DNA from: Bacteroidia bacterium
GTDB taxonomy: Bacteria > Bacteroidota > Bacteroidia > CAILMK01 > JBBDIG01
Assembly (NCBI GenBank): GCA_040880525.1
Contig: JBBDIG010000027.1
Coordinates: 1-32,388 of the forward strand
Direction: 5' to 3'
DNA: 32,388 nucleotides
Of the stretch, positions 22,133 through 25,656 are shown piece after piece. The position numbers were made by a program, and so were the translations under genes. How positions within the stretch are numbered: the stretch's first letter is position 1; each line of letters starts with the position of its first letter. Below the pieces are notes generated by a model. It did no database searches, was not told the DNA's origin, and saw only the letters and a program-made list of their open reading frames with translations.

Positions 22133-22945
22133 TTATTCTTCACCTGGATTTTCATCTTCCGGCATTCCATTTTGAAGTTCATAAACTTCAGGATCCATGA
22201 TCCAAATATCTATAACATCGCCAAGAGCAATTTTTCCAGAACCGGGTTGCGGCCGCTGACGATAAACAATTGCATCGGCAGTGTCAGTAACGCTGCCCAT
22301 CACAATTGGGTTTCCGATGTTTATTCCGGCACCTTTCAGCAGGAATACGGCTTCCTGATACCTCAACCCGGAAAGATTGGGTACAGTGATCTCGCTGTCT
22401 TTTAATCCATCGCCTACCACCAGATCAATCACAGAACCCTCCGCCACGCTGTCATTCTTCGTAATATCCCGGCCTTTATATTTCATACCCAAAACCAGAT
22501 TAGGCGCCCAATGCGGCACATATTCCAGTTCGCCTATCTTTAATTTTTTATTACGCAAAAGATCGCGGGCGTGCGTAACAGAAGAATTGTCAAGATTAGG
22601 AAGCCGGACTTTTGCCGGCTGCCCGGAATTCATCGTCAGGTAGATGGTTCGGTTTCGCTTCACTTTGCTGCCGGGCACCGGATTTTGTTCGATGACCGTA
22701 TTCAAAGGCAAGTCGGAAATATAAACGGTATCGAAAACCTTAAAATTCAGGCTCTTTGCCTCAATTGTTTCTTGTACTGCTTCGATGGATTTTCCGGTTA
22801 AATCCGGAACGGTAAGCGATTCACCATGATTGGTGTAGCTATCAAGAAACTGGAAAAAGAGGAACACGAGAAGTGACAAAAGGCCGATGGCAATCAGAAC
22901 ATTAATCCAGAATGCACGGCTGATCAGGAATTTGAAGAAGCTCAA
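22133..22945 (-). CDS. Membrane-anchored triple PASTA domain protein
   Basis: A 270-residue protein with a short cytoplasmic N-terminus, one membrane helix at about residues 11-33, and a periplasmic part of three PASTA domains starting near VPDLTGKS (residue 46), LPNLDNSS (115) and VPNLSGLR (190), each ending in the usual D/G-xVIDxxV or similar strand. PASTA domains bind peptidoglycan stem peptides or beta-lactams in other bacteria, usually as part of a Ser/Thr kinase or PBP, but here no kinase or transpeptidase domain is attached. The start is TTG at 22945, overlapping the stop of the ligase gene as TTGA, so translation is probably coupled. Its position next to a D-Ala-D-Ala ligase supports a role at the cell wall. 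Confidence 0.88.
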   Translation of the reverse strand: MSFFKFLISRAFWINVLIAIGLLSLLVFLFFQFLDSYTNHGESLTVPDLTGKSIEAVQETIEAKSLNFKVFDTVYISDLPLNTVIEQNPVPGSKVKRNRTIYLTMNSGQPAKVRLPNLDNSSVTHARDLLRNKKLKIGELEYVPHWAPNLVLGMKYKGRDITKNDSVAEGSVIDLVVGDGLKDSEITVPNLSGLRYQEAVFLLKGAGINIGNPIVMGSVTDTADAIVYRQRPQPGSGKIALGDVIDIWIMDPEVYELQNGMPEDENPGEE

Positions 22946-25656
22946 TGGGCGGTAGCTTTTAAAATGCCGAAATTTATAATTTTATCTAAAAACTCCTGGG
23001 GCTTATAACCATTAATAGCCGCCTGGTGAAATATGCACGTGGCAGGAGTAAGGCCGGGAAGCGAATTCGCCTCAATAAATACCACCTCCGTTCCTTCATC
23101 CTCATAAATGCGAACAAAAGCATCAATGCGGCAGTAGCCTTCAATTCCCAATTCTCCTGCCGCTTTTTCCAGTTGTTCCCGCACTTTGGAAGAAATCCGC
23201 TGATTCTTTTCCTTGTCGCGGTGAAAGCGGGCAGGCGTGATGTTCTGGCCCTCACCAGCAAGAAATTTTTCCTCGAGCGAAAGAATGCCTGCTCCCGCCA
23301 GCGCTTCAGAAGGTTCGAATACCTCAAACTGGCTTTCGCTTCCGATGGCTGGTTTTATCAGCATTCCTCCTGTTATTTCCAGGAATTGCTGCGCTCCGTT
23401 CCGGCTGATCAACTCCTCCACTATGAAATAGGTCTTTTGCGGAAATTCCTCGTTCAGCTTTAGGTGTAGCTGGCGGGCAGCTTTTTCCGGCAGAAGTTCG
23501 TCTTTCCGGAAAATGATCTCTGCGAAAAGCTTTAATTCATCTGGCGAGTCAATCTTCTTGACGGCTGAACTGCAGCCATCATCAGAAGGCTTTGCTATGA
23601 GCGGAAATGCTATCTGCTCCTCAATTTGCCCGAGCACCGATGCCGTATCGTCCTCCCAGCGTTTTTTATCAATAAAAATACTTTTAGGAACCTTGAATCC
23701 TTTTTCCTTCAGAATTTGATTAGTTCTGAATTTATCAATCGTGATCTGCGAAGACTCGAATCCGGAGCCGTTGTATGGGATCCGAAGTTCTTCCAGCTTT
23801 TGCTGCAGCGTTCCGTCTTCGCCTGGGCGGCCGTGCAATGCGATAAAAGCGAAATCAATATGCTTATTCAATTGTTCCAGCGGTATTTCCACAGGACTGA
23901 ATTCATATCCCGCTGAAGCATATTTTGCAGTAATATCCTCTGCTTCCCCAATAATTTTTTTAATGATAAGCGGGATAGAAAAGTGTTTAATTTTATGACG
24001 AATGTCGTCTGCGTTATCTTTCAGCAGCAGGTTAAGTGGAAGGATGTGAAATCGCATATCATCAGCCGAACCGGATAGAAACAGGGGTACAGGATCATAC
24101 ATTCCGAAGGATGCCAGCTTTTCAAAAACATTGCGGCCACTCTCCACGCTAATGTGCCGCTCCGTACTATAGCCGCCCAATATTACGCCTACCCGGGTTT
24201 TTTCCTGCACTTCCTTCCTTGTTCCGGCAATGGCTGTATCCAGCTTTTGCAGCAGGCTTTTAAGCGCAAGGGAGGAGAAGCTGAAACGCATTCTTTCCGC
24301 CACCGAAGTGCGGACAATATAGGTGAGAAACTGCGATGGACTCAACCCTATCTCAGCGGCCTGGTGAAAGAAAAATGAAGAAGGCAACATTCCTGAGGTC
24401 GTATTCGGATCATTGAGGTAAATGGTGCCATCATCGCCCAAAATGCCATCCAGCCTGGCGTAGACATTAAAATGAAAGTAGTCAAACAGCTCTTCACACT
24501 TTTGCCTGATCTCTTCAATCTTCTCATCCGGCAGTTCGATAGGTGTAATCTTGTTGCTGATGCCGGGCAGATATTTCGCGCGGTAGTCAAAGAGGTGGCC
24601 CTTCTTGCGGATTTCGGTTGGCGGCAGGGCCACCGGCCTCCCCTGCTCGTTTTGCACTACAATGCACGAAAACTCCTTTCCCTTTATAAATCGTTCAATT
24701 AATACGTGTGGCTCCGTTTGCAGGCTTTCGATAAATGCCTTTCCTTCTCCGGGGAGTTTATCCAGGAGAGTCAACAGTTCTTCCGGATGGTTGGCAATCC
24801 CAGGTTTTGAAACCGGAGAATTGCTTTCAATATCTGATACCTGCCATGTCACTTCCACCGGCAGGCCAATGCCTTCCTGAAAATCCGTCAGGCTTTTTAC
24901 AAGCTTTATTTTTTGTGCTTCGGTGAATTTATTCCATTGATCTAAATCAACGCTTTCTGTAAAAAAACAGCGGTATACAGCTTTTGTAAATTGCGCCTCA
25001 TTCGCTTCATCCAAAATCTGCACGCCTATGGAGGATCCCTGAGAAGATGCCTTTATCACAAGAGGAAACCCGAATCTTGCTATCGCTTCTTCATAAAATG
25101 GGTAATGATCTTCTGCATCAAGCCACTTCTGCCGGGGGATAACCAAATATTCAGGCGTAGCAAAATCTGAATTCTTCAAGAGACGCTTCTGCACCACTTT
25201 ATCAATACCGATGGCAGAAGAAAGAATTCCGGAACCGGTATAGGGAATATGATAAAAATCGAGGATGCCCTGGATAGTGCCGTCCTCACCGTATGGGCCA
25301 TGAAGTGTCAGGAACGCAAAATCCATTAAGCCGGCCAATTCTTCGGGTGATATTTTGCGGCCAATACTGGCGATCATCTCGTCCTGTTGCTTTTCGGTTA
25401 GCGGCTGGAGGCTTTCTATATATACATTGAATTCAGATGACGAACCAGGCAGGAAAGAGGTGGGCGGATAAAAATCGCGGATGCTTCCTTTATATAAATA
25501 TTGCCATTCCAGCAAAATGAAATTGCCCAGACTGTCAATAAACACCGGCACCGGCTCGAACAGGTTTTTTTCAATAATATCATACACCGTCCGGCCGCCC
25601 GCAAAGGATATTTCCCGCTCCCGGGATTTACCGCCAAGTAAAATTCCGATCCTCAT
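22942..25656 (-). CDS. Tandem fusion of two D-Ala-D-Ala ligase (ATP-grasp) units
   Basis: A 904-residue cytoplasmic protein, about three times normal Ddl length, built of two complete ligase units. Unit 1 (about 1-470): GGKSREREIS with catalytic Glu13, LHGPYGEDGTIQG, IPYTGSG, a KASSQGSSIG loop, omega-loop AKYL with Lys361-Tyr362, Arg401/Asp403, and metal segment LNDPNTTSG with Asp416 in place of the usual Glu and Asn418. Unit 2 (about 485-904): GGYSTERHIS with Glu499, ALHGRPGEDGTLQ, IPYNGSG, KPSDDGCSS, EEKFL with Lys797-Phe798, Arg843/Asp845, and IEANSLPG with Glu862 and Asn864. Each unit has an insert in its central ATP-grasp region, larger in unit 1 (about 80 residues). Ddl makes the D-Ala-D-Ala end of the peptidoglycan stem. 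Both units keep most catalytic residues, so both may act, with possibly different second substrates. The ATG at 25656 fits unit 1. Confidence 0.92.
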   Translation of the reverse strand: MRIGILLGGKSREREISFAGGRTVYDIIEKNLFEPVPVFIDSLGNFILLEWQYLYKGSIRDFYPPTSFLPGSSSEFNVYIESLQPLTEKQQDEMIASIGRKISPEELAGLMDFAFLTLHGPYGEDGTIQGILDFYHIPYTGSGILSSAIGIDKVVQKRLLKNSDFATPEYLVIPRQKWLDAEDHYPFYEEAIARFGFPLVIKASSQGSSIGVQILDEANEAQFTKAVYRCFFTESVDLDQWNKFTEAQKIKLVKSLTDFQEGIGLPVEVTWQVSDIESNSPVSKPGIANHPEELLTLLDKLPGEGKAFIESLQTEPHVLIERFIKGKEFSCIVVQNEQGRPVALPPTEIRKKGHLFDYRAKYLPGISNKITPIELPDEKIEEIRQKCEELFDYFHFNVYARLDGILGDDGTIYLNDPNTTSGMLPSSFFFHQAAEIGLSPSQFLTYIVRTSVAERMRFSFSSLALKSLLQKLDTAIAGTRKEVQEKTRVGVILGGYSTERHISVESGRNVFEKLASFGMYDPVPLFLSGSADDMRFHILPLNLLLKDNADDIRHKIKHFSIPLIIKKIIGEAEDITAKYASAGYEFSPVEIPLEQLNKHIDFAFIALHGRPGEDGTLQQKLEELRIPYNGSGFESSQITIDKFRTNQILKEKGFKVPKSIFIDKKRWEDDTASVLGQIEEQIAFPLIAKPSDDGCSSAVKKIDSPDELKLFAEIIFRKDELLPEKAARQLHLKLNEEFPQKTYFIVEELISRNGAQQFLEITGGMLIKPAIGSESQFEVFEPSEALAGAGILSLEEKFLAGEGQNITPARFHRDKEKNQRISSKVREQLEKAAGELGIEGYCRIDAFVRIYEDEGTEVVFIEANSLPGLTPATCIFHQAAINGYKPQEFLDKIINFGILKATAH

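Follow-up and report, generated by a model that had tools for sequence, protein, structure and literature searches.

A tandem D-alanine--D-alanine ligase of Bacteroidia that pairs a canonical half with a conserved, divergent second half

The minus strand of the window (the whole analysed stretch of 32,388 nucleotides, contig JBBDIG010000027.1 of a Bacteroidia bacterium) carries at 22942..25656 a gene for a tandem D-alanine--D-alanine ligase (Ddl), a single open frame without interruption which encodes a protein of 904 residues with the Pfam domains of this enzyme class in both halves. Based on the sequence, its conservation and distribution, the status of the gene as sole Ddl and its truncated relatives, we consider it moderately probable that the protein is a housekeeping Ddl (half 1) fused to a second ligase (half 2), which would itself probably be active and would use another acceptor or form another product.

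Gene and domain organisation

Pfam analysis of the 904-residue protein gave two passing stretches for Dala_Dala_lig_N and four for Dala_Dala_lig_C, and the N- and C-terminal D-Ala-D-Ala ligase domains were detected in half 1 as well as in half 2. This agrees with the preliminary description of the stretch, which had proposed two ligase halves with Tyr and Phe, respectively, in one polypeptide. Half 1 (residues 1-455; 24292..25656, minus strand, as for all further features of the window) carries the canonical Ddl substrate triad and the catalytic residues and was aligned to E. coli DdlB by hhalign with 99.9% probability. Half 2 (residues 487-904; 22945..24198) is a divergent Ddl-like ATP-grasp ligase with the invariant motifs GCS, EKFL, RIDAF and NSLPG, for which the corresponding hhalign probability was 99.8%. 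The halves are connected by a linker helix (residues 456-486; 24199..24291), modelled by AlphaFold as a helix at 462-485. The models of the full protein and of half 2 alone each reached a pTM of 0.86, and in Foldseek searches solved Ddl structures ranked first for the full-protein model and for the half-2 model. The omega-loop region of half 2 (residues 780-815; 23212..23319) is longer than that of DdlB and was modelled with low confidence. Furthermore, half 1 exhibits an insert of about 80 residues relative to DdlB in its middle (ATP-grasp) domain (residues 222-343; 24628-24993), the outline of which is conserved family-wide.

Downstream of the ligase gene a PASTA-domain protein is encoded (22133..22945), as indicated by Pfam (PF03793) and synteny. 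Both genes overlap by 4 bases at 22942-22945, and this overlap suggests translational coupling. At another locus (L040) the tandem Ddl frame comprises 1200 residues and extends beyond half 2; the extension is apparently the downstream PASTA protein.

The Tyr216 position in the two halves

Tyr362 of half 1 (codon 24571..24573) and Phe798 of half 2 (codon 23263..23265) had initially been placed by hand on the position of DdlB Tyr216, and hhalign, HMMER and a MAFFT multiple alignment agree on this placement and on the codons. In the profile-profile alignment of hhalign and in the MAFFT alignment with single Ddls, AKYL of half 1 and EKFL of half 2 fall on AKYL of E. coli DdlB, anchored by Lys215-Tyr216. 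HMMER against the PDB brings EKFL of half 2 onto the same motif, the Y216F mutant chain 1IOW outscoring wild-type DdlB.

Conservation was evaluated in 115 aligned tandem proteins, which were drawn from two collections, with some species possibly counted twice, and of which 14 were picked for divergence (about 40-48% identity). Tyr362 was found in 115/115 of these proteins and in 32/32 truncated relatives, and Phe798 in 115/115. With both residues invariant in homologues down to about 40% identity, the Tyr/Phe pair is, at the level of the alignment, a rule of the family and not a chance letter. The assignment of Phe798 to the Tyr216 position is likewise made by sequence alignment: its loop has a pLDDT below 50 in both AlphaFold models (full protein and half 2), so that a structural superposition of the Phe798 side chain is unreliable.

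The pocket of half 2

Compared with DdlB, half 2 shows six changes: Ser150 is replaced by Cys, Val152 mostly by Ser, Gly153 mostly by Ala, Tyr210 by Leu, Tyr216 by Phe and Ser281 by Thr. Cys695 at the Ser150 position (23572..23574) and Thr873 at the Ser281 position (23038..23040) were each found in 115/115 tandem proteins, and the triad of half 2 reads E499-C695-F798. All 35 ordinary single Ddls that are readable at these positions, LmDdl2 of Leuconostoc mesenteroides aside, have Tyr216 and Ser150. The equivalents of DdlB Glu15, His63, Lys97, Lys144, Lys215, Arg255, Asp257, Glu270 and Asn272 are kept in half 2, and Lys689, Lys797, Arg843, Asp845, Glu862, Asn864 and Glu499 each occur in 115/115 tandem proteins. 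Conservation is slightly higher in half 2 than in half 1, with mean column identities of 0.69 and 0.63, respectively. A degenerate or neutrally evolving half 2 was rejected on account of the active-site residues (115/115).

The residues for ATP, Mg2+ and the acyl phosphate do not vary, nor does the Glu by which the first D-amino acid is held, so that half 2 would be a further ATP-grasp ligase and probably a catalytically competent one. In view of the triad E499-C695-F798, the longer omega loop and the Thr in place of Ser281, its acceptor or product probably differs from plain D-Ala-D-Ala. Alternatively, half 2 might also form D-Ala-D-Ala, but with changed kinetics or a changed pH range, by which one protein would provide more dipeptide. 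The nearest curated models and structures are indeed ordinary Ddls and the equivalents of Glu15, His63 and Arg255 are retained; however, every member has two altered triad residues, both of which are kept by all single Ddls sampled in the phylum, and one would expect a redundant copy to retain or lose its pocket and not to fix a different one. We regard this alternative as unlikely.

Relation to D-Ala-D-Lac ligases

From the Phe of half 2 the preliminary description had derived a dipeptide ligase and a depsipeptide-type ligase in one chain. The two halves with Tyr and Phe stand, but the depsipeptide step is not supported, as among the compared positions only Phe is common to half 2 and LmDdl2 (1EHI), a D-Ala-D-Lac ligase. 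LmDdl2 shares its fold with half 2 and, unlike the tandem protein, is a single chain; it has Ser150 like the other single Ddls combined with Phe at the Tyr216 position. At Ser150, Val152, Gly153, Tyr210 and Ser281 it is like DdlB, the corresponding residues of half 2 being Cys, Ser, Ala, Leu and Thr; the 1EHI sequence in the comparison agrees with the PDB chain at each of the 377 residues. Since LmDdl2 shares only the Phe, this residue is part of a co-conserved, different pocket and not a Leuconostoc signature.

A half 2 that acts as a Leuconostoc-type depsipeptide ligase would yield D-Ala-D-Lac and mixed stem termini. Apart from the invariant Phe, two literature reports count for this possibility: in lactic acid bacteria this one residue tells depsipeptide and dipeptide Ddls apart (PMC5996685), and DdlB substituted at Tyr216 and Ser150 has weak D-Ala-D-Lac activity (PMC7691350). 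In addition, 1EHI ranked fifth among the structural matches of half 2 in Foldseek (DdlB Y216F ranked eleventh), within a tight E-value band that does not discriminate specificity. The five positions at which 1EHI is DdlB-like and half 2 is not argue against it, as do the loss of half 2 in a whole family (see below) and the score of half 2 with the NCBIfam D_ala_D_lac model, which was 85 bits with a cut-off of 550, the general Ddl models scoring best. Nowhere in the genome was a match to the D-Lac ligase model above cut-off found, and by its 85 bits half 2 itself does not class as a VanA-type D-Ala-D-Lac ligase. No match to a VanX-type dipeptidase (PF01427), which would belong to a VanA-type glycopeptide resistance system and had been suggested at first as a partner, was present in the genome. 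A D-Ala-D-Lac ligase of this type is therefore quite improbable to us, and D-Ala-D-Lac would be one minor candidate among the products of half 2. An effect on glycopeptide sensitivity, which had been anticipated, is likewise not supported; moreover, Bacteroidia have an outer membrane, so that sensitivity is a poor read-out.

The MurF complement, in which a partner of the second product had been sought, did not correlate with a tandem, truncated or single Ddl: stand-alone MurF was found in 25/25 genomes whatever the Ddl type, and a second MurF as partner was rejected for want of any correlation. Nearly all of the 25 compared genomes contained a clear MurF-containing frame of about 800-870 residues, taken as MurF-Alr. 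One genome (G000) harbours a third full-length MurF-like gene (contig C5:2331-3590; L154, 1477-2856), its other MurFs being a stand-alone gene on C26 and an 836-residue MurF-containing frame on C39, presumed to be MurF-Alr; no third MurF match above the curated cut-off was observed in the other genomes of the 25. The same genome also encodes a 660-residue protein (L001, 1420-3402, minus strand) that joins an N-terminal portion resembling a methyltransferase to a Ddl-C-like ATP-grasp part and is no ordinary Ddl.

Half 1 as the probable housekeeping ligase and the loss of half 2

The triad of half 1, E13, S208 and Y362, is invariant where present (Ser208, 25033..25035, at the Ser150 position of DdlB, in 110/110 rows with a residue) and matches E15-S150-Y216 of DdlB. 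Half 1 thus retains the dipeptide pocket with one deviation, Asp416 in place of Glu270, a Mg2+ ligand in DdlB. In 16 tandem genomes the tandem gene is the sole Ddl, as all Dala_Dala_lig_N matches lie inside it, two per genome; with the genome of the window being 98.4% complete, a missing second Ddl is possible but unlikely.

In one related family (f39) the match in 59 of the 61 genomes covers half 1 and ends within half 2, and the majority of the frames have 555-677 residues. The truncated tandem Ddls of this family correspond to loci L184-L213, L042 and L043. Their half-1 active site is intact (32/32 at every catalytic site checked), while the remnant of half 2 consists of the N-lobe only, in which the ERHISVESGRN motif has decayed and from which the ATP-grasp lobes are gone. 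Family f39 clearly illustrates how a fused protein has lost a domain. The truncated form is the only Ddl in 22/22 genomes checked, and since by the established pathway MurF of these cells requires D-Ala-D-Ala, half 1 should be sufficient by itself. From the sole-Ddl status and the truncated relatives we infer that half 1 alone almost certainly makes D-Ala-D-Ala and would be the ordinary D-Ala-D-Ala ligase of the cell. Half 2 is dispensable, as it was lost in f39, yet it is conserved where it was kept.

Ddls are generally known to dimerise, and the N-lobe of half 2 kept in f39 suggests a dimer-like contact with half 1. This lobe would probably pack on half 1 much as one subunit of a Ddl dimer packs on the other, which would make the tandem protein a pseudo-dimer. 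A half 2 that is catalytically dead and serves half 1 as a structural or ATP-sensing partner could also account for the truncated form, in which the N-lobe outlives the catalytic lobes and its own Glu and Gly-loop motifs have decayed, as for a structural interface, and in which half 1 alone should suffice. All checked ATP, Mg2+ and phosphoryl-transfer residues, however, are present in 115/115 tandem proteins, and such residues are usually lost in dead domains; we judge a dead half 2 to be improbable. Several points count against the favoured reading of the protein as a whole: the Phe loop is of low confidence, both halves lie on long branches, Glu270 is replaced by Asp416 in half 1, and the conservation of half 2 could originate from allosteric binding of ATP.

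Distribution and origin

The half-2 domain was found in 133/295 sampled Bacteroidia genomes (71/155 genera), nearly always in a frame of about 900 residues, and many families of the Bacteroidia have homologues of this length that comprise both halves. The best 80 named-genome loci were all fusions, including those of Pontibacter roseus, Adhaeribacter soli, Rufibacter roseus and Cytophaga aurantiaca. No convincing stand-alone half 2 was observed among the 295 genomes of the class or the best 80 named loci. Short half-2 frames (e.g. in G578, G418 and G028) were rejected as stand-alone candidates, as they lie at the end of a contig or close to it, or match pieces that are spread over two contigs. 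Among the matches listed in the sample no tandem match came from same-phylum genomes outside the class, and a search for phage or viral copies returned none.

In the phylogenetic tree halves 1 and 2 cluster together against the single Ddls with a support of 100/94, although both are on long branches and the tree program warns of a possible artefact. After dropping either half the other one stays on a long stem outside the single Ddls. The PASTA gene is present at the ligase locus in 60/100 tandem loci and also at 4 single-Ddl loci, and because these 4 loci adjoin the same PASTA gene, the tandem gene appears to hold the ancestral ddl locus. Judging from the sequences, the tandem gene probably arose by internal duplication at this locus, with the reservation that the grouping may be a long-branch artefact.

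Comparison with known systems and implications

E. coli DdlA and DdlB have the same fold and ATP-grasp residues as both tandem halves, and their E15-S150-Y216 is kept in half 1. They are single chains, however, whereas half 2 deviates by Cys and Phe in the triad, by Thr at 281 and by the longer omega loop, and half 1 by Asp at Glu270. The large subunit of carbamoyl phosphate synthetase (CarB) also consists of two tandem ATP-grasp halves, but its chemistry differs; the halves of CarB perform different steps and are joined by a tunnel. A title cited in PMC11915815 traces them to an internal duplication.

A search of the literature, in a coverage that leaves out most subscription journals, gave no report on a bacterial (Bacteroidetes) tandem Ddl. 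The initial statement that no protein of this kind has been described was nevertheless too strong, since plant DDLs are fusions of two DDLs across the plant lineage (PMC9954125) and proteins of the same kind occur in nearly half of the sampled Bacteroidia. The plastid DDL of plants and mosses (Arabidopsis, Physcomitrium) resembles the bacterial protein in having two DDL domains in one chain and differs in being eukaryotic and plastid-linked; the moss Ddl has been reported to be nearest to the Fibrobacteres-Chlorobi-Bacteroidetes group (PMC9434261). A common origin of the plant and the Bacteroidia tandem DDL is a lead only.

Ddl is essential and is an antibiotic target (D-cycloserine). In a large part of the Bacteroidia this essential enzyme is bound to a second ligase site, which selection holds in a non-standard form, and the lineage with half 1 only (f39) offers a ready natural comparison. 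With the moss version reported to be nearest to the group that contains these bacteria, the tandem Ddl is also relevant to how the plastid DDL fusion of plants arose. Tentatively, and as a possibility that we would still call doubtful, nearly half of the sampled Bacteroidia may have their sole D-Ala-D-Ala ligase fused to a second, active ligase, whose product, D-Ala-D-Lac or some other dipeptide or depsipeptide, would be undescribed and yet in routine use in their wall or metabolism.
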